This document shows positions 8,530 through 34,244 of a DNA stretch of 34,244 nucleotides, piece by piece. The stretch lies in IMG/VR virus record IMGVR_UViG_3300009155_000018, positions 1 through 34,244 of that record, one strand, 5' to 3'. The notes under the pieces were generated by a model. That model had not been told where the DNA came from, ran no database searches, and saw only the letters and a list, made by a program, of their open reading frames with translations. Source of the stretch: a virus. Positions within the stretch are counted from its first letter, which is position 1, and each line of letters opens with the position of its first letter. Position numbers and translations under genes: made by a program.

Positions 8530-8553
8530 GCACAATGATAAATTAAAGGAGAT

Positions 8554-8748
8554 TTATCGTCTTAATTTGGGATTGCGACGTTGTAATTCCACAGCAAACA
8601 TTGTGGCCATACCACGATCACGCCAATTGATCACACACCATCGCAAATAATTTTCAGGAAGATCCTTAAGGAAAAAACCCTTATACTTGCCATATGGCAT
8701 CTTGGTCAGTTGGTATTCTTGATATTTCATAAGTTGATAATAACACAT
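8554..8748 (-). CDS. DUF3820-like small protein
   Basis: 64 residues from the ATG at 8748. A second ATG at 8730 would give 58 residues. Neither has a clear Shine-Dalgarno. The core (KMPYGKYKGFFLKDLPENYL, then RWCV) matches the DUF3820 pattern MPFGKYKG-x-L-x-x-(L/V)P-xxYL-xW, found in small bacterial and phage proteins and at the ends of some exonucleases. Function is unknown. It is first in the leftward cluster. Its 5' leader contains two stable hairpins, and a CTAAATAA motif lies 59 nt upstream. Confidence 0.7.
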   Translation of the reverse strand: MCYYQLMKYQEYQLTKMPYGKYKGFFLKDLPENYLRWCVINWRDRGMATMFAVELQRRNPKLRR

Positions 8749-8752
8749 TCGG

Positions 8753-8793
8753 AGATCTCTTGCGAGATCTATTGAGCAACTTCGTAGCTCAAT
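8753..8793. promoter_or_regulatory. Two tandem hairpins in the leader of the DUF3820-like gene
   Basis: AGATCTC (8753-8759) pairs with GAGATCT (8764-8770) around TTGC. Directly adjacent, ATTGAGC (8771-8777) pairs with GCTCAAT (8787-8793) around nine bases. On the plus strand they are followed by a T-rich run (8794-8812), so they may stop rightward transcription. On the minus strand they lie in the 5' leader of the 8748 gene and could control its translation. Confidence 0.5.
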
Positions 8794-8807
8794 TGTTTTC
8801 TTTTTAT

Positions 8808-8813
8808 TATTTA
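8808..8813 (-). promoter_or_regulatory. CTAAATAA late-type motif before the 8748 gene
   Basis: The minus strand reads ATCTCTAAATAATAAAAAG. TAAATA ends 59 nt before the ATG at 8748, leaving a leader with two hairpins. Compare 61 nt at the 14075 gene, which also has a hairpin in its leader. Confidence 0.45.
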
Positions 8814-8844
8814 GAGATCATTTGACAGATAGATTGATCAGAGT

Positions 8845-8865
8845 GCCACTATCCGAAATAGTGGC
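8845..8865. other. Perfect 8-bp stem-loop
   Basis: GCCACTAT (8845-8852) pairs perfectly with ATAGTGGC (8858-8865) around CCGAA. There is no T run on either side, so it is not an ordinary terminator. It may be a protein-binding site or part of a structured RNA. Confidence 0.55.
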
Positions 8866-8900
8866 GCATCTTTGACGAGTGAGTTGCTCGGTCGTTGCCA

Positions 8901-8957
8901 GCAGGTGTTTGCAAGTATTCGAAGTATTGCTTGGGCTCAACGCTTGCCCGGACCTGC
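8901..8957 (+). other. Predicted branched RNA/DNA fold
   Basis: GCAGGT (8901-8906) can pair with ACCTGC (8952-8957), enclosing two hairpins: CAAGTA with TGCTTG (8912-8917/8928-8933, one G-U pair) and GGGC with GCCC (8933-8936/8946-8949, the first G shared with the previous stem). GATTTTTAAG follows. The arrangement resembles a small three-way junction. The pairing was found by eye and no family is recognised. Confidence 0.35.
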
Positions 8958-9092
8958 CGCGATTTTTAAGAGAACATCTCAGTGGCTGTTTGTTCTCATA
9001 GCAATAGTAATCTTCTAACCATTCCGATCACGCAAATCGTCATCCGTTCGTCAGGGTTCTCAACTAATGGGACTATTCTTTCAGGCTACTCT

Positions 9093-9215
9093 TCAGTAGT
9101 GCGCAAAAGCCACTGTGTAGATATCAGCGAATTGGTTGCCGTCACACATCAGAACGGATTCACCAGCACAATTGTTATTCGGCGTGCCAACCTTGTCTAC
9201 ATAATCGATCTCCAC
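9093..9215 (-). CDS. Possible 40-residue protein with GTG start (tentative)
   Basis: A leftward frame starts with GTG at 9215, three bases after a CTAAATAA motif, and runs 40 codons to TGA. The product (MEIDYVDKVGTPNNNCAGES..., ending VAFAHY) is acidic and compositionally protein-like. There is no Shine-Dalgarno, as at other genes directly behind this motif. It could equally be chance in a structured region. Confidence 0.25.
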   Translation of the reverse strand: MEIDYVDKVGTPNNNCAGESVLMCDGNQFADIYTVAFAHY

Positions 9216-9218
9216 TGT

Positions 9219-9224
9219 TATTTA
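9219..9224 (-). promoter_or_regulatory. CTAAATAA late-type motif, leftward, inside the intergenic region
   Basis: The minus strand reads TTGACTAAATAACAGTGG. No large gene follows for 470 bases leftward. If active, it would transcribe the hairpin-rich region 9215-8815 as a leader or a non-coding RNA. Confidence 0.4.
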
Positions 9225-9232
9225 GTCAAGTC

Positions 9233-9264
9233 AAAAAAAAGCACTATATTTCTATAGTGCTTTT
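9233..9264. terminator. Bidirectional intrinsic terminator
   Basis: A perfect 8-bp stem GCACTATA/TATAGTGC (9241-9248/9253-9260) with loop TTTC is flanked by eight A's on the left and TTTT on the right. Read leftward, the hairpin is followed by eight U's, a strong terminator. Read rightward there are only four U's, so it is weaker. Confidence 0.85.
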
Positions 9265-9352
9265 CCCGCCGTTCGGTTTTGAAGTTGGAGACTTAAATGT
9301 AGATAGGCTGTGTGCATGGCACCTTGATTAACTAGAAAAAGGATCTCCTGCA
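9233..9352 (-). ncRNA. Candidate small leftward RNA between a late-type motif and a terminator
   Basis: A minus-strand CTAAATAC motif (9359-9364) and a strong U8 terminator (9241-9260 stem, tail to 9233) bracket a transcript of roughly 115-120 nt. GTGTGCA (9355-9349) can pair with TGCACAC (9316-9310), although the 5' arm may begin before the transcript start. A 21-codon frame (ATG at 9317, TAG at 9252) lies inside with AAGGT too close to the start codon. A non-coding RNA seems likelier than a peptide gene, but both are unproven. Confidence 0.35.
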
Positions 9353-9358
9353 CACAAG

Positions 9359-9364
9359 TATTTA
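9359..9364 (-). promoter_or_regulatory. CTAAATAC late-type motif, leftward
   Basis: The minus strand reads CGTGCTAAATACTTGTG. It is similar to the site at 8524-8529 (GTGCTAAATAAC). It lies about 115 bp upstream of a strong leftward terminator with no sizeable gene between, hence the small-RNA suggestion. Confidence 0.4.
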
Positions 9365-9373
9365 GCACGGCGT

Positions 9374-15148: not shown

Positions 15149-16756
15149 ATGCTGGACTCTGGTGTGTTGATGCGCCGTGCCTTGCGATACAGTTTGGAAA
15201 GCAATGACCTCAAGCTGGAAAGTTTAGGCATGATGGATTCGGTCACGCAGGATCAATTCCAACAGCTGAGCATTGCAGTGGCCAATGATATGCAGTATAA
15301 CCAGCTGCGATATTTTAGGCCGTTTGATCATCAACGGCGATTCTTTGAAACAGCCGATAGTGATCGTAGAGGCATACTGGCAGCCAACCGAATTGGCAAA
15401 ACAGTCAGCACCTGCTACGAAACAGCCATGCATCTCACAGGTCTGTATCCCGAGTGGTGGACCGGACACAGATTTGATCATCCCATCACAGCCATGGTGG
15501 CCGGTGAAGGTTGGAGTCAGGTGGCCATGGTGTTGCAAAATGAACTGTTAGGCACTCAAGATGTCAAGATTCGCGATGCCATTGGAACTGGTGCTATTCC
15601 CCGTGATTCGATCATTACGGACACCATGCGATCGGATGGTGCCAACTGTATGGGCGTTGAGATCAGGCATCCCAAAGGCAAAAGTTACTTGTTGTTTGCC
15701 AACTACACACAAGAAGTTAGACAAATGCAAGGATTCAAACTGAACCTGGCCGTGTTTGATGAACAACCACCCGACGACTTCTTCAGTGAAATTGTGACCA
15801 GAACTGCCACCACACAGGGCAAGATCCTGTGCAGTTTTACACCACTCAAAGGTCTCAACGGCCTGGTATCAAAGTTCTGGAATCGAGAAGCGGGCTATGA
15901 CTTTATCCGAGTGGCTTGGTCAGATGTGCCGGAATATGATCCATGGGGTGAACCATTCTTGTTGAAAGAAACCCGTGCTCAGCTAGAGCGTGATTACTTG
16001 CCACACGAGCGTGAAGCTCGTATTGCCGGCAAACCTGTGATGGGTCAAGGTGCTGTGTTTCAAATCCGTAACTGGCCTGTCTACAAGACCGGTGACTACA
16101 ACTTTAGAGAAATGAACAACATCCACAGGATCATAGCCTTGGACCTGGGCCTGGTAAACGATCGAACTGTTATTAGCCTAATGTATTGGAATCCCTTAGA
16201 GCGTGAAGCTTGGTTGCACAGACAGATCTGTGTAAGTGGCATTGAAGAAGCCAATCCAACCAATTACATCAACCATCTCATGCGGCCTGAAGTGTTTGGC
16301 ACACCCATTGTGTTGCCTCCAGATGGCGGCACACAGGGCCGTTATACCATGTCAGCGTTATCCATAAGAGAGTTATTTGAACAGTATGAACTCAATGTGC
16401 ATGCCAAACCCATAATGAATCCTCCGGATGATCAAGGCAGAACCACCAATCACAAAAGTTTTGGCATCAACATCATGCGTCAAATGCTGGAAGCCGGCAC
16501 TTTCCATGTGAATGAAAATTGTGTGGATTTCCTACGCGAAGCACAAAACTACTATGTGGATCCACAGGGCAGATTTTCGGATCCAGATGACACCATAGAC
16601 TCAGCCCGTTATGCCCTATTGGGTTGCCTGAACAACATAGCCGAACCGTGGGATAACCGAACTCCCCGTGAGCGCATGGCCGCACAGCGTAGCCGTTATG
16701 TGCAGAAAACTCAGCCCAATTCAGAATGGAAACGAGTATTTGACCCCGGCAACTAA
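15149..16756 (+). CDS. terL: Terminase large subunit
   Basis: 535 residues; AAGGA before the ATG. ATPase motifs: Walker A ILAANRIGKT (76-85) and Walker B LAVFDEQPP (200-208, D204/E205). The RNase H-like nuclease domain starts at IIALDLGLVNDRT (D332), has PPDGGT (D392) and ends with the acidic DPDDTIDSARYAL (about 478-490). This is the motor that pumps DNA into the procapsid and cuts it. The length is normal for the family and all key acidic residues are present, so it should be active. The final codons contain the -35 of promoter P4. The motif style (ANRxGKT) fits podoviral and P22-like terminases. Confidence 0.95.
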   Translation: MLDSGVLMRRALRYSLESNDLKLESLGMMDSVTQDQFQQLSIAVANDMQYNQLRYFRPFDHQRRFFETADSDRRGILAANRIGKTVSTCYETAMHLTGLYPEWWTGHRFDHPITAMVAGEGWSQVAMVLQNELLGTQDVKIRDAIGTGAIPRDSIITDTMRSDGANCMGVEIRHPKGKSYLLFANYTQEVRQMQGFKLNLAVFDEQPPDDFFSEIVTRTATTQGKILCSFTPLKGLNGLVSKFWNREAGYDFIRVAWSDVPEYDPWGEPFLLKETRAQLERDYLPHEREARIAGKPVMGQGAVFQIRNWPVYKTGDYNFREMNNIHRIIALDLGLVNDRTVISLMYWNPLEREAWLHRQICVSGIEEANPTNYINHLMRPEVFGTPIVLPPDGGTQGRYTMSALSIRELFEQYELNVHAKPIMNPPDDQGRTTNHKSFGINIMRQMLEAGTFHVNENCVDFLREAQNYYVDPQGRFSDPDDTIDSARYALLGCLNNIAEPWDNRTPRERMAAQRSRYVQKTQPNSEWKRVFDPGN

Positions 16757-16768
16757 TTGTGTTATACT
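16740..16768 (+). promoter_or_regulatory. Early-type promoter P4 embedded in the end of terL
   Basis: -35 TTGACC (16740-16745) encodes part of the terL C-terminus. The 17-nt spacer spans the terL stop. The -10 TATACT (16763-16768) is preceded by TGT. Transcription would begin at about 16775, exactly the ATG of the secreted protein, so the mRNA is likely leaderless. The same architecture as P1-P3 in a late region marks a moron-type unit. Confidence 0.85.
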
Positions 16769-16774
16769 GTGTGT

Positions 16775-17071
16775 ATGCGTATAATTATTTTAGCCCTGTT
16801 GTTTGTGAGTTACGCGGCCTGGGGTTTTCAGGGTTCGGGCTCGGATCTGGCTCAACCGCCGGAACCGGTGTTTGTTCGCACCCGATTGATCACTGGAGAA
16901 GCTGCCACGGCAGCGGCCAGTGTGCAACAGGCTCTGCTCAAGGCCCGAGTTGAAGCACAAGCAGTCACACACTTGAGTCTGCGTGTGACCAACTGGGCTG
17001 TGGCTCAAACCGAACGGCGTGGCGACATTTATCGATCACAGGTCTGGGTCACAGTCAAAAGCATTCACTAA
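16775..17071 (+). CDS. Secreted/periplasmic small protein with its own promoter (moron candidate)
   Basis: 98 residues from the ATG at 16775. The upstream in-frame GTG at 16757 would place the -10 box inside the gene. Residues 1-17 (MRIIILALLFVSYAAWG) are a typical Sec signal peptide with a cleavage site after AWG, leaving about 80 residues. The mature part begins Gly/Ser/Pro-rich and continues with a helix (ASVQQALLKARVEAQAVTHL) and strands (VTNWAVAQTERRGDIYRSQV). There is no ribosome site. It separates terL from portal and carries promoter P4. Secreted phage morons often block superinfection or alter the envelope; that role is inferred. No lipobox Cys is present. Confidence 0.75.
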   Translation: MRIIILALLFVSYAAWGFQGSGSDLAQPPEPVFVRTRLITGEAATAAASVQQALLKARVEAQAVTHLSLRVTNWAVAQTERRGDIYRSQVWVTVKSIH

Positions 17072-17085
17072 GCTGTCACAATTGT

Positions 17086-17117
17086 AGGATCCAACTAAAT
17101 AACTGATACAGGATCCT
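17086..17117 (+). promoter_or_regulatory. CTAAATAA motif in the loop of a hairpin before the portal gene
   Basis: AGGATCC (17086-17092) and GGATCCT (17111-17117) form a perfect 7-bp inverted repeat. TAAATA (17096-17101) lies in the loop. AGGA at 17110-17113 is also the ribosome site for the ATG at 17123. A transcript starting upstream (for example from P4) could fold this stem and hide the ribosome site. One starting at the TAAATA element would lack the 5' arm and leave it free. Confidence 0.5.
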
Positions 17118-17122
17118 TATTA

Positions 17123-19402
17123 ATGTTAGATATCAAACATAAAGTCTTAATGCAACTAAATCAAAACAACTCTACTCTGAGTCGTTTTGTGCGACTTAAA
17201 GGGCAACTAGACACCAAGTGTGCAGCTTACCTGCGTTACCTGGGCACAAAAAATGCTGTCAACAGAGCCAGTGATTATCACTATCTATGTTTGGCAGTGA
17301 ATGAATCAACGGCACCAGTCAACGGTATCGATTACATACACCCAGTGGTCAAACCCTGCGTGGACTATGTGACAGCAGTGATCGCCAAGGGTCTGGCACC
17401 ACAAGGCGAAATCAACTTTAACTTTGTTCCCGACACCGAGGAAGATGATGTGGCCGCACGTCAAGCTACCGACATGGTCAGCCGTGTGTTGAACGAAGAA
17501 AATGATCCACACTTTATCTTACAGCGTTGGATCATGGACGCATGTATGCACAAAAACGGCATGCTGATGGTGTTGCCCAAGCGTGAACAAATTGTGCGCT
17601 ATGTGGAAAGCACTGGCACAGCAGATCAACTGCGAGCATTTGAAGCACAGGCCCAAGAGTCAGGTCTTACTGTGCTACGCCAAAGCCGTAGAAAACAAAA
17701 TGTAGACATGGCTCAAGTCATGCAAGAAATACAGGCCAACATGGGCGGAGTTGAACAAGCTCACGCACAAGGCATGATAGATGAACATTTGGCCCAGTTG
17801 GGCACAGCCATTGATTCCGATGAATCAGTAGGCGAAATGGATCAAGACACAGAAGGCTTGATCGAAGCTCAAGAAGATTCAATCAGTCAAGCCATTGCCC
17901 GCAACACAATCTACACGGCCAAATACAAATTGACAGGCTGGAGCTTGCATGTCAAGTTCCGCAACATTGCACAACACTACTGGATCTGTGATCCCACTGT
18001 GCAAGAAATGAAAGACCAAGCGTTCTGCGGATTTTACGATCCAATGAGTATCCAGGAAGCTGTGCAACTGTATCCAGAAATACAAAACCACATGGAAGAG
18101 TTCCGTGAGTTTGCCGAATACAATCAAAACGGTGCTTACCAAGCCGGTTCAGTGTTGAACAACTTGGCCATCCATGCCAGAGATTCAGTGCCGGTCATGG
18201 GCATACCTGTTGAGTCCGGTGTAGGCTCAGATCCAGATTCAAGACAAATTACAATTTTAACTGTTTGGGACCGCTACGACATTGACGGCGATGGCGAATT
18301 GGAACTGATTGAAATAGTATTCTCCGGTAACTACATTATCAGTGCCAAGGAAGTGGAGTTCATTCCAGTGGCCAACATGTGTCCCAAGCCATTGCCTGGC
18401 AACTTCTATGGATTTAGCATTGCGGAAAGTGTAATTCCCATGCAGGAATACATGACTAGTGGTCATCGTGCAGAGATCTTACTGGGCTTGCTGACAGCAA
18501 CACCACGTCTAGGTGTCAAACCAGACAAGGTGGACTTTGAAATGCTACAAGATGGCGAAGCAGCCATCTTTATCTTGGATCCCAAATTTGATCCAGCCAC
18601 TGACGTGTATCCATTACCGCCTCCCGGTGGCAACTTGGGCTTTATTGACAATGCAATGACCCGTATGCAACAGGACACACAGGCCATTATTGGCATGACC
18701 ACACCGCAAGACGTGTTCAATCCTGAAGTTATGGCAGCAGGTAACTCGGGTGCCAAGCTACAAATGGCACTGGGCCCTAACCAAATCATACAAGACAACG
18801 CTGTGCGTAATGCCGCTGATGGACTCAAAGAAGCCATTTGGTTGGTATGGCGCACCTTAATACAATACGGTGATGACTACAGTGTTAAAAAACTGGCAGC
18901 CATGTATCACCCTGACAAAAAGCCTGTATACCTAGACTATGCAGCCTGGGATGACATGAACTTTTGTGATCGCAAGCTGATGCATATTGAATTGGCCCTG
19001 GGCATGATGAGTGAAGAGAACCAATTACAGCGTCAACAGATCATTGTGCAAACACAAACACAATTATACGCCGCTGTTCAAGCCATGGCCACTCAAGGCA
19101 CCCTGACTCCAGAAATGTTCAAGAAGATTAAAAAGCCCTATGCTGATACACTTTATGTGTTGGGCGTAAAAGACTGTGATACATACTTGCCAACCGATGA
19201 AGAAGTCAAGACCATGATTGAACAAGGACAAAAAGCTGCCGCTGGCAAAGAGCCAACACCAGCCGAGAAGAAAGATCTTTCAGTTGCAGAACTTAATGCA
19301 GCCCGGGCCACACAGGTCAAGGCCGAATTGGAAGGCACAGATGCTGAAAGTCAATTGGACTTTATGGCCATGGCACAAGGCAATCCGAAAGTTTATAACT
19401 GA
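17123..19402 (+). CDS. Portal protein (podovirus, P22/SU10-like)
   Basis: 759 residues, the usual size for large podovirus portals. The N-terminal helices (YLRYLGTKNAVNRASDYHYL), the IHPVVKPCVDYVTAV segment, a central long helical/coiled region (about 190-260) and the C-terminal EVMAAGNSGAKLQMALGPNQ block followed by a long helix fit portal clip, wing and barrel parts. Twelve copies would form the ring at the capsid vertex through which DNA is packaged and ejected. It follows terL (with the moron between) and precedes the scaffold and major capsid genes, the standard order. Identification rests on size, order and general resemblance rather than on one diagnostic motif. Confidence 0.88.
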   Translation: MLDIKHKVLMQLNQNNSTLSRFVRLKGQLDTKCAAYLRYLGTKNAVNRASDYHYLCLAVNESTAPVNGIDYIHPVVKPCVDYVTAVIAKGLAPQGEINFNFVPDTEEDDVAARQATDMVSRVLNEENDPHFILQRWIMDACMHKNGMLMVLPKREQIVRYVESTGTADQLRAFEAQAQESGLTVLRQSRRKQNVDMAQVMQEIQANMGGVEQAHAQGMIDEHLAQLGTAIDSDESVGEMDQDTEGLIEAQEDSISQAIARNTIYTAKYKLTGWSLHVKFRNIAQHYWICDPTVQEMKDQAFCGFYDPMSIQEAVQLYPEIQNHMEEFREFAEYNQNGAYQAGSVLNNLAIHARDSVPVMGIPVESGVGSDPDSRQITILTVWDRYDIDGDGELELIEIVFSGNYIISAKEVEFIPVANMCPKPLPGNFYGFSIAESVIPMQEYMTSGHRAEILLGLLTATPRLGVKPDKVDFEMLQDGEAAIFILDPKFDPATDVYPLPPPGGNLGFIDNAMTRMQQDTQAIIGMTTPQDVFNPEVMAAGNSGAKLQMALGPNQIIQDNAVRNAADGLKEAIWLVWRTLIQYGDDYSVKKLAAMYHPDKKPVYLDYAAWDDMNFCDRKLMHIELALGMMSEENQLQRQQIIVQTQTQLYAAVQAMATQGTLTPEMFKKIKKPYADTLYVLGVKDCDTYLPTDEEVKTMIEQGQKAAAGKEPTPAEKKDLSVAELNAARATQVKAELEGTDAESQLDFMAMAQGNPKVYN

Positions 19403-31336: not shown

Positions 31337-34244
31337 ATGGCACTAACCGGACAACAACTTTACGCCTTGCAGGCAGATTATAACAAGCAATTGGCCGCGG
31401 CCAAAACGCAGGCTGAATTCAATGCAATTTTAACCAAAGCCAAAACAGCCGGTGTTACACTAGATACAAAAATCAAAGCAGATACACAGGCCGCAATTAG
31501 TCGAGCAGAAACAGAAGCTAGAACAGCCACAGCCAAAGCTGCCGCTGACAAAGCCATTGCTGAAAAGGCTGCTGCCGCCAAGGCTGCCACAGACAAGGCC
31601 TTGGCTGAACAGGCAAAAAAACAATATGATGCTATTGCAGCTACCACGGCCAAACTCAAAACTGAATCTACAACTCAATTAAAAAATGCCACTACTAGTC
31701 AACAAATAAACGACATATTGGCCAAAGCCAAAGCTGGTGGTGCTGTGCTGGATCCTGCCACTGTCACTATGGCTACAGATCGTGCTAAAGTATTAGATTT
31801 TAACACCAATTTAAGCAAAGCAACCAGCATTAAAGAAATTGATGCATTGGTTGCCAAAGCCAACGCAGACAAAGTTGGATATAGTGTGCAATCCATTGCC
31901 ACGGCTAAAGAGCCATTCATTCAACAAAGTTTACAAAAATATCAACAACAATTAAGTGCCGCCACTTCAATCCGAGATGTCAATGCTATTGCCAACCAGG
32001 CCAGTGCTGAACTTGGTAGATCATTAGATCCGGCCAGCATTACAAAACAAACACAAAGCATTATACAAGGATACACAGATCAGATCAAATCAGCCAAGAC
32101 TATAGATGAATTGACATCATTGCAACAAAAATTGCAAAGTGATGGTGCCAATCTAGATTCTAAATTGTTTGCTAGTGCCAAAACTAATCTTGATGCGGCC
32201 ACCGCTGCCGCACAAAAACAACTTGCAGACCAACAGGCACAGATCAAGGCCGCACAGGCCGCGGCAACTAATCAAATTAGAACTAATTTTATCAACAATG
32301 TAATAAACAAAGGCACGGCCACACAACAGCAAATTGATGAATATACCAAAGCTGTAACAGCGGCCGGTGGAACTCCTGAAGCAGGTCTTGTGACTCGAGC
32401 TCAGGGATTTATTGATAGTGCGGCCAAAGCAGAAATTGCTAATAAACAATCAGCTGTTAGAACTAATTTTATCAACAATGTAATAAACAAAGGCACGGCC
32501 ACACAACAGCAAATTGATGACTATAAAAAAGCCATAACTGATCTTGGTGGAACTCCTGACGCAGGTCTTGTGACTCAAGCACAAGGAATTATTACTGCCG
32601 CGGCTACGGCTGCCAAAAATGCACAATTACAAGAATTTAAAAATGAAATCACACGAGGCTCTAATGCCGCATCATTGACCAAAGCACAAGTAGCTGACAT
32701 TGCGGCTCGTGCTGAAAAAGCCGGAACACCATTGGATCCCACTTATCTTAAAGATGCCAATGATCGAGCTCAAGGGTTTTTGGCTGACAATTATTCACAA
32801 CAAATATACAATGCCGGCTCGCAAAAAGAAGTTGATGACATTTTAGCCAAAGCCAAAACTGATGGTGTCACAGTTAATGCTGGCATACTTGCCAATACTA
32901 CCAAAAACATAGCAACCAGAGTTGCTTATCAAAATGATATTGCTAAATTTGTCACTGATCAACAGACCATGCCTGGCATGCCCAAGACAACTTATGGTCC
33001 AAATGGTGCAACATTGTATTCAATACCACCCGACGCTACTTCAGGCCACAAGGGCGGTTGGTATAGTTTTGACAGTGGCAACAACACCTGGAGAGAACTG
33101 GGCAAGGATGGCAAACAAACAGGCAAAATTATTACTCAAACTGAGCTTGATAAACAGGCCAATGATGTAGGTTATAACCTGGCCATGAAAGCCGGTGATA
33201 TACGCACAGCCAACACTTATGCCAGTCTATCAAAAGATCCAGCCAAATTTGAAGCAACATTACCAAAAGTAGTCACAGCTGAATATGCCAAAGCACAATT
33301 GGTCAATCAAAATGGACTTGCAGATCCAAGTTTGGCCTTGTCATACGGCAATTATAGCCACAATCCACAAGAAACTTATGTGCCACGAACTGGACCAGAC
33401 GGCACTGATTATATCTATCAACCAGCAAACATAGTTACAGGAGCACCGGGTCAGTGGCTCAAATCCACCAGTAATCAAAATGTCAGTAATACTTTAAAAA
33501 ATTATGTTCCTGTAGGGCAACCTAATGCTGTTCCAGTAAGCTATAAAAATCAAGTGGCAGCCATTGACCAATCGATCAATCAAAACTACGCCACAGCCAA
33601 ACAAATCAGTAGTGACATAAATCGCAAATATGCAGAACAAAAAGCAACTCTTTTTAGTAACAGTGGTGGTGATGACATATTTGCACAATTTGACAAACTG
33701 GTCAATAACACTATTGGTTGGAAAACTATTGCCACAATTGCAGGAAGTTATCTTGGTGGCCCATTGGGTGCCGCTATTGCCAATGCCACTGTGGGTGCAG
33801 TCAAGGGCGAAAGTATTGAACAAATAGTCAAAGGTGCTGCATTAAGTTATGCCATATCCTATGGCACACAAGCATTAGGTCAAGCCCTTAATGAAACCGT
33901 GGCTGCAGGTGTTGAAACTGGCGGCATTGATCCAATTGATGCAAGTGAATTTGACACAGGTGTTGAACAAATACAAAATCCTTCACCTGAAGTGCCCACA
34001 GGACCAGAAATCCCAGGACCAGTGGCACCACCAATTGCACCTGAACCAGTATACACAGCACCTGAACCAGTATACACAGCACCTGAACCAGTATACACAG
34101 CACCTGAACCAGTATACACAGCACCTGAACCAGTGGCACCACCAATTGCACCTGAACCAGTATACACAGCACCTGAACCAGTATACACAGCACCTGAACC
34201 AGTATACACAGCACCTGAACCAGTATACACAGCACCTGAACCAG
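31337..34244 (+). CDS. Giant repeat-rich virion/ejection protein, N-terminal part (continues at 1..1848)
   Basis: The frame runs from the ATG at 31337 to the end of the window without a stop; the rest is at 1..1848. Residues about 1-550 hold roughly nine degenerate repeats of 60-70 residues, each with a core like NDILAKAKAGGAVLDPA or DDILAKAKTDGVTVNAG within Ala/Gln-rich helices. A mixed region follows with a small beta motif (KGGWYSFDSGNNTWRELGKD, about 574-593). Then comes a Gly/Ala hydrophobic segment (TIATIAGSYLGGPLGAAIAN, about 797-816), a likely membrane-active helix, and the PEPVYTA repeats. Large helical proteins with membrane-active parts after the tail genes are typical podovirus internal or ejection proteins. 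A fibre or tape-like role is less likely. Confidence 0.8.
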   Translation, partial: MALTGQQLYALQADYNKQLAAAKTQAEFNAILTKAKTAGVTLDTKIKADTQAAISRAETEARTATAKAAADKAIAEKAAAAKAATDKALAEQAKKQYDAIAATTAKLKTESTTQLKNATTSQQINDILAKAKAGGAVLDPATVTMATDRAKVLDFNTNLSKATSIKEIDALVAKANADKVGYSVQSIATAKEPFIQQSLQKYQQQLSAATSIRDVNAIANQASAELGRSLDPASITKQTQSIIQGYTDQIKSAKTIDELTSLQQKLQSDGANLDSKLFASAKTNLDAATAAAQKQLADQQAQIKAAQAAATNQIRTNFINNVINKGTATQQQIDEYTKAVTAAGGTPEAGLVTRAQGFIDSAAKAEIANKQSAVRTNFINNVINKGTATQQQIDDYKKAITDLGGTPDAGLVTQAQGIITAAATAAKNAQLQEFKNEITRGSNAASLTKAQVADIAARAEKAGTPLDPTYLKDANDRAQGFLADNYSQQIYNAGSQKEVDDILAKAKTDGVTVNAGILANTTKNIATRVAYQNDIAKFVTDQQTMPGMPKTTYGPNGATLYSIPPDATSGHKGGWYSFDSGNNTWRELGKDGKQTGKIITQTELDKQANDVGYNLAMKAGDIRTANTYASLSKDPAKFEATLPKVVTAEYAKAQLVNQNGLADPSLALSYGNYSHNPQETYVPRTGPDGTDYIYQPANIVTGAPGQWLKSTSNQNVSNTLKNYVPVGQPNAVPVSYKNQVAAIDQSINQNYATAKQISSDINRKYAEQKATLFSNSGGDDIFAQFDKLVNNTIGWKTIATIAGSYLGGPLGAAIANATVGAVKGESIEQIVKGAALSYAISYGTQALGQALNETVAAGVETGGIDPIDASEFDTGVEQIQNPSPEVPTGPEIPGPVAPPIAPEPVYTAPEPVYTAPEPVYTAPEPVYTAPEPVAPPIAPEPVYTAPEPVYTAPEPVYTAPEPVYTAPEP
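32277..32520 (+). repeat. Recent 180-bp duplication inside the giant protein gene
   Basis: A 64-base stretch at 32277-32340 recurs identically at 32457-32520, a 180-bp (60-residue) spacing. The rest of each unit is similar but diverged (for example GGTGGAACTCCTGA and GCAGGTCTTGTGACTC are shared). The unit is two copies of the degenerate AKAK-type module, one copied more recently. Confidence 0.92.
34028..34244 (+). repeat. Higher-order 111-bp repeat of PEPVYTA units at the contig end (includes terminal repeat copy 2)
   Basis: A block of a 22-nt lead-in, four 21-bp units (34050-34133) and five linking bases recurs with a period of 111 bp (34028 and 34139). The second block runs off the window end after four units (34161-34244). 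It is identical to bases 1-106, where the array continues to six units. The exact number of units and blocks at the join cannot be fixed from this assembly. Confidence 0.92.

Follow-up and report, generated by a model that had tools for sequence, protein, structure and literature searches.

Why would a phage carry a small gene with its own promoter between its terminase and portal genes, and what could the product do? The question is raised by a virus record of 34,244 bases, which was analysed over its whole length and is referred to here as the window. A preliminary description of this DNA had read the locus as a moron, in which a secreted protein is expressed from an early promoter among late packaging and head genes and may, as is common for such units, exclude competing phages or change the host surface. 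The small open reading frame (ORF) between terL and portal is present as described, with an ATG at 16775, a stop at 17071 and a product of 98 amino acids. The features of the locus are collected in Table 1.

Table 1. Features of the terL–portal region of the window.
Feature	Coordinates	Strand	Basis or remark
terL (large terminase)	15149–16756	+	PHROG phrog_2 terminase large subunit, E 9e-23
Promoter TTGACC-17-TATACT, extended −10 (TGT before hexamer)	16740–16768	+	same arrangement in all five family members
Six-nucleotide gap from −10 to ATG (leaderless configuration)	16769–16774	+	TGT before ATG in five of five members
98-aa ORF, apparently exported SHS2-fold protein	16775–17071	+	family of five, structural model, dN/dS
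Predicted signal peptide, about residues 1–17, possible AWG cleavage site	16775–16825	+	hydropathy; model helix 2–16, then low-confidence linker
Mature beta-alpha-beta-beta domain, residues 33–97	16871–17065	+	AlphaFold2 pLDDT; dodecin Z 9.0, FlgT Z 7.2
GGATCC inverted repeat around CTAAATA	17086–17117	+	arms 17086–17092 and 17111–17117; without U-run
CTAAATA motif upstream of portal, kept downstream of insert	17095–17101	+	TAAATA in 87 of 93 junctions; alignment
Portal gene	17123–19402	+	phrog_1216, E 4.2e-31

The scan of 40 window ORFs with PHROGs revealed no integrase or repressor family, and a terL scan of genome contigs for a host gave five candidates, none of which was confirmed. At the far end of the window, a long frame on the + strand (31337–34243, 969 codons) continues without a stop to the end of the window and has no PHROG match; a large gene is apparently cut off at the end of the record.

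To place the insertion in context, the loci of relatives were collected from IMG/VR using the best 80 of 244 terL matches and the best 80 of 226 portal matches, which yielded 93 distinct terL–portal junctions. Forty-two of these are 60 bp or shorter and are regarded as empty, one is 148 bp, and 50 are at least 150 bp, with a maximum of 2,677 bp. The closest relatives lack the gene: among the matches listed, the nearest empty junctions (L084, L005 and L006) are flanked by terL and portal genes that are 89–90% and 84–86% identical to those of the window, respectively. In an alignment of filled and empty sites, the insert lies after the terL stop and ahead of the stretch that runs up to CTAAATA upstream of portal. 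Conservation in all relatives, which the preliminary description had named as evidence against an inserted unit, is not observed, since homologues of the gene (hereafter the cargo gene) occupy only 5 of the 93 distinct junctions, the window included. The empty and otherwise filled junctions rule out a gene common to the whole phage group and, by this comparison, the terL–portal junction is a cargo site. It is a defined and recurrent one in a little-studied phage group from environmental metagenomes, and its filled and empty states offer a clean natural comparison. In the literature search, which covered titles and abstract openings with subscription papers mostly outside its scope, neither the protein family nor a terL–portal cargo site was found.

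Several other junctions deserve mention in their own right. The other fillings appear varied, and those in L034, L052, L096, L101, L122 and L135 include long ORFs and small paired-cysteine ORFs, often with a start directly after the terL stop; some of the long ORFs in junction fillings contain motifs that we take to be DNA-methyltransferase-like. In the 554-bp gap of the L063 junction, the end of terL and the start of portal are present a second time, suggesting either a local duplication or an error of assembly. One contig (3300002091_000037, 54,495 bases) contains two terL loci, L065 and L076, in its first 14 kb and last 23 kb, and may therefore join two phage genomes.

The four other members of the cargo family are divergent and fall into short (L085 and L018, 95 aa each) and long (L083, 127 aa; L093, 134 aa) proteins. 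They were identified in a phmmer search of the window and 152 loci, translated in six frames to give 17,563 segments. In that search, the window protein detects L085 (E 5.6e-14) and L018 (E 4.7e-7), and its direct matches to the long members are weak (L093, E 0.025; L083, E 4.3). Homology to the latter is carried by L085 and L018, which connect to L093 (L085–L093, E 2.5e-4) and L083 (L018–L083, E 1.9e-5); the two long members match each other at E 4.9e-39. In the roughly 1.6 Mb of related loci covered by this search, no member lies outside the junction. Scans of viral contigs with single members or alignments as queries gave no further members, and tblastn with the window protein and L093 found no match in 50,697 phage records. 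A search of genome contigs with two short peptide patterns returned 110 candidate stretches, none of which was confirmed as a bacterial homologue. No family in Pfam, PHROGs, NCBIfam or PADLOC is significant or reaches its curated cut-off, and PDB sequence profiles gave no convincing match (best E 0.013, to a tape-measure domain, and E 2.4). L085/L018 have a dN/dS ratio of 0.15 and L083/L093 one of 0.11, the synonymous sites being near saturation; as judged from these ratios, the ORF is under purifying selection. Five homologues and purifying selection together speak against an incidental ORF.

The cargo does not follow the genes that flank it. A core tree was built from terL and portal with FastTree for 83 of the 93 rows; ten with short flanks, the member L018 among them, were dropped. 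The tree pairs the window with L083, L085 with the empty L005, and L093 with the empty L090, whereas the nearest cargo proteins are those of the window and L085 (41% identity) and those of L083 and L093 (54%). This disagreement indicates that the cassettes move or are replaced. Presence and absence require at least three changes on the core tree, and the cassettes, by this reckoning, are exchanged or lost several times; we claim patchiness rather than gain or loss because the tree comes from FastTree only and covers 83 of 93 rows.

The promoter of the cargo gene comprises a −35 element TTGACC (16740–16745), a 17-nt spacer and an extended −10 element TGTTATACT with the hexamer TATACT at 16763–16768, and in sequence is a strong sigma-70-type promoter. 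It overlaps the end of terL as previously noted: with the terL ORF running to 16756, the −35 element is contained in its final codons. TTTGAC in the terL tail is also found in relatives without the cargo gene. Four sites in the window (9409, 9958, 11177 and 16740), all on the + strand, fit the strict motif TTGAC-N18-TATANT, compared with a mean of 0.063 sites and never four in 300 dinucleotide shuffles, which rules out a chance promoter at 16740. At the three sister promoters (9409, 9958 and 11177), the next ATG is located 29–36 nt downstream and is preceded by an SD-like (Shine-Dalgarno-like) sequence. These promoters share the extended −10 element TGTTATACT and precede genes without assigned function. 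The cargo promoter may be an early one, as proposed in the preliminary description.

Only six nucleotides separate the −10 element of the cargo promoter from the ATG, so the expected transcription start coincides with the A of this codon or lies no more than about 2 nt from it; the sequence anatomy thereby agrees with the earlier proposal that the transcript begins at the ATG itself. On inspection of the sequence, the ATG at 16775 has no Shine-Dalgarno-like purine run in front of it. The arrangement is shared by all five members, in which TTGAC[ACG], 17 nt, TATA[ACG]T, six nucleotides and ATG follow one another with TGT directly before the ATG, and the spacing is conserved although the proteins are only 27–64% identical. 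The −35 element falls in the terL tail (TTTGAC) in the window, L085 and L018, overlaps the terL stop in L083 and lies just behind it in L093. A start at the upstream in-frame TTG at 16757 was rejected, because the ATG alone is found at a constant position across the five members. With the ATG at the predicted transcription start in all of them and no Shine-Dalgarno sequence before it in the window, the cargo gene very probably lacks a messenger leader.

Among the loci examined, the spacing is also specific to the cargo genes. The related loci and the window, with the annotated record L153 left out, contain 26 distinct strict promoters, and an ATG at a distance of 6 nt is found for five, exactly the five family genes. 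One of the remaining 21 has an ATG at distance 0 (an 8-codon ORF), and the next ATG of the other twenty is 20–114 nt away. Taken together, the promoter, its spacing and the junction comparison make a leaderless, self-promoted, exchangeable cassette a well-supported prediction. Such an arrangement would be a simple means of expressing cargo that lies among late genes without placing it under their control.

A scan of IMG/VR contigs for TTGAC-N18-TATANT-NNN-TGTATG extended this observation to at least 120 stretches (L156–L275). An ORF of at least 40 aa begins at 101 of 127 seed sites in these loci, compared with 626 of 2,396 random ATGs. The 188 other strict promoters in the same loci have a bimodal distance to the ORF, with a sharp peak of 20 promoters at exactly 6 nt and a broad second mode around 21–34 nt; for 52 of these promoters, no ORF of this size follows within 70 nt. 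At the thresholds used, no homologue of the cargo family, terL or portal was detected in the first 80 of the loci. Because so many seed sites open an ORF and the peak at 6 nt is sharp, the spacing of six nucleotides marks, as far as sequence can tell, a real class of promoter–ATG fusion. With this peak in other environmental phages, the generality of leaderless phage genes can be tested directly.

Downstream of the cargo gene, the CTAAATA motif that precedes portal is retained. In 87 of the 93 junctions, the final 60 bp ahead of portal contain TAAATA, usually as CTAAATA; it mostly lies 25–34 nt before the portal start and is reminiscent of the T4-type late promoter TATAAATA. In L084 and L085, GGATCCTGTA and TACAGGATCC form an inverted repeat whose loop contains the motif. 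The hairpin formed by the GGATCC repeat is weak in the window (z −0.9; −4.4 in L084 and −4.5 in L085) and is not an intrinsic terminator because it lacks a U-run. A scan for the intrinsic type found no terminator-like site on the + strand of 17071–17123.

These results bear on the name given to the unit. A moron, as defined in the available text of PMC4378225 for lambdoid and Mu-like phages, includes a terminator. The cargo unit is present here but missing from this junction in close relatives, is patchy and has its own predicted promoter, a strict one in five of five members; the terminator part of the definition was not found between the gene and portal, and we therefore call the unit moron-like. 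It resembles the lambdoid and Mu-like morons as a single unit between adjacent conserved genes that carries its own promoter and is patchily distributed and exchanged. In contrast to those morons, it has no intrinsic terminator that could be found, places its −35 element in or beside the end of the upstream gene, has a leaderless start and occupies the terL/portal site. In the window, the G+C content by codon position is a little higher in the cargo gene (0.63/0.49/0.53) than in terL (0.55/0.40/0.51) and portal (0.57/0.35/0.47).

Of the 32 window ORFs examined, the cargo protein alone combines a charged N-terminus with a strongly hydrophobic core of 11 residues behind it, with a mean Kyte-Doolittle value of 2.87 against 1.52 for the next highest ORF, and all five members share the charged N-terminus and hydrophobic core. 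The Sec signal peptide had been described as clear; its prediction here draws on hydropathy and on the N-terminal helix of the structural model, and on both the product is apparently exported. AlphaFold2, supplied with the five-member alignment, gave a model with a mean pLDDT of 83.7 and block means of 90–98 over residues 31–98. It contains helix 2–16, a low-confidence linker, strand 34–43, helix 46–62 and strands 69–82 and 85–96, and shows a separate globular domain behind the N-terminal helix. This bears on the alternative named in the preliminary description, in which the product is a virion component or its N-terminus anchors a structural protein in the membrane.

In a VIA-align comparison of the model, dodecins ranked first (Z 9.0, rmsd 2.1, 58 residues), with lower scores for FlgT (3w1e; Z 7.2, rmsd 2.9, 61 residues), an LPHT ring chain (8z5n; Z 6.5) and HP1454 (4kzs; Z 6.1), where values below 8 may mean only a common arrangement, the SHS2-like fold being small and common. 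The L093 model is weaker (mean pLDDT 66.9, low confidence in the insert; dodecin Z 7.3, FlgT Z 6.8). Foldseek alone returned no match below E 0.001 for the window model in the structure and viral libraries; the first and third matches in the viral structure library are a phage 'Lipoprotein' (E 0.019) and an 'LPP20 lipoprotein' (E 0.044), both weak. The mature domain, confidently modelled, has the SHS2-like beta-alpha-beta-beta arrangement of the FlgT_N/LPP20 fold, and its predicted SHS2/dodecin/FlgT-like fold, for which the matches are modest, adds information beyond the earlier reading. The sequence tests for the individual families gave a different picture. For FlgT_N (PF16548), the window protein has no match and L093 reaches 16.2 bits against a gathering cut-off of 28.8 (E 0.016). 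For LPP20 (PF02169), L093 reaches 14.8 bits against 25.9 (E 0.041) and the other four members have no match; the window protein has no dodecin match in Pfam up to E 10. We therefore assign the cargo protein to none of the FlgT_N, LPP20 and dodecin families. L083 and L093 carry an insert after the helix, which the window protein, L085 and L018 lack. According to the available text of PMC12222027, FlgP, dodecin, Lpp20 and FlgT share the SHS2-like fold, and the formation of rings is associated with an insertion that separates the helix from the second strand.

How could such a unit work? We lean, at slightly less than even chances, towards an exchangeable moron-like cassette at the terL–portal site that expresses, from a leaderless message, a Sec-exported SHS2 domain acting on the envelope. 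The host RNA polymerase would transcribe the cargo gene outside the late programme, and the leaderless mRNA would be translated from its 5′-terminal AUG, an ability assumed for the host. Read-through from terL late in infection would yield little cargo protein, because the ATG lacks a ribosome-binding site, and expression would thus be uncoupled from the late genes. Sec, likewise assumed to act on the protein in this host, would export the product with loss of the signal peptide, and the mature protein would fold in the periplasm as a minimal SHS2 (dodecin/FlgT-N-like) domain. The likeliest role, itself open to considerable doubt, is that the domain binds an envelope component, probably an outer-membrane-associated assembly of the same fold or a receptor complex, and alters the surface, the simplest benefit being to limit adsorption or DNA entry of rival phages. 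Superinfection exclusion or a surface change, as the preliminary description suggested, is plausible; PADLOC gave no match for the cargo protein, which does not rule out an exclusion role. Envelope proteins of phages that exclude superinfection include Llp of T5 and Cor of phi80 and N15, and the cargo protein may be likened to these as a small, phage-encoded and apparently exported product that could act on the host surface.

The strongest competitor, unlikely but less so than the others, is a captured host envelope gene of FlgT_N/LPP20 type that is kept for a favourable change in host physiology (such as motility or envelope stability) and not for blocking other phages. The apparent export, the resemblance to FlgT (Z 7.2) and HP1454 (Z 6.1), the matches of L093 to FlgT_N and LPP20 below cut-off, and the report of the fold in FlgP, Lpp20, dodecin and FlgT in the available text of PMC12222027 are consistent with such an origin. 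However, the two peptide patterns found no close bacterial homologue, and the window member lacks the insert that the same text links to ring formation. In likeness to FlgT_N, LPP20 and FlgP proteins, the family is apparently exported and adopts a beta-alpha-beta-beta fold, and its two longer members carry a post-helix insert; unlike them, it falls below the Pfam cut-offs and consists of one short domain, without the insert in the window protein, L085 and L018. A more specific and distinctly improbable proposal is that a stripped-down ring-building fold (SHS2/FlgT-N), made from the leaderless message ahead of the late transcript and independently of it, caps or poisons outer-membrane rings of the host from the periplasm, the short members, without the insert tied to ring formation, stopping assembly and the long ones serving as competing subunits. 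Whichever of these envelope roles applies, the cargo proteins form an unnamed family whose role can be tested.

A lysis or late-envelope helper, for example a periplasmic partner of lysis proteins that by chance lies beside the packaging genes, has little probability. It would suit a small, apparently exported phage protein in a window whose scanned ORFs include no recognised lysis gene save a transglycosylase domain in a 920-aa protein, but most relatives lack the cargo or carry another in its place, whereas a phage would normally retain its lysis functions. The gene also has its own sigma-70-type promoter rather than the CTAAATA motif, and the window protein has no cysteine and hence no lipobox. 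Still less credible is a periplasmic dodecin-like binder of a ligand or flavin: dodecins are the top matches among solved structures and give the highest structural Z, but the cargo protein has no sequence match to them in Pfam and is apparently exported, whereas the dodecins known so far are cytosolic. Just as remote is a promoter that serves mainly portal and the head genes downstream, with the small ORF incidental, since the transcript may run on for want of a terminator found before portal, yet no promoter scoring at least 10/12 occurs in the 42 empty junctions, all of which have portal, and the ORF is under apparent purifying selection, homologous in five contigs and has its ATG at +7 in five of five.

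The cassette reading also finds a partial counterpart in lambda. The lambda repressor cI is cytosolic. Its mRNA is leaderless according to the available text of PMC9031893, and the cargo gene, with its predicted leaderless message, resembles cI in this respect, but unlike cI it encodes an apparently secreted protein and stands among structural genes.

A cluster of the motif found before portal also occurs elsewhere in the window. On the minus strand, four CTAAATA copies (9365, 9225, 8814 and 8530) span about 0.85 kb at 8530–9365, and the first strict promoter of the + strand follows shortly after.
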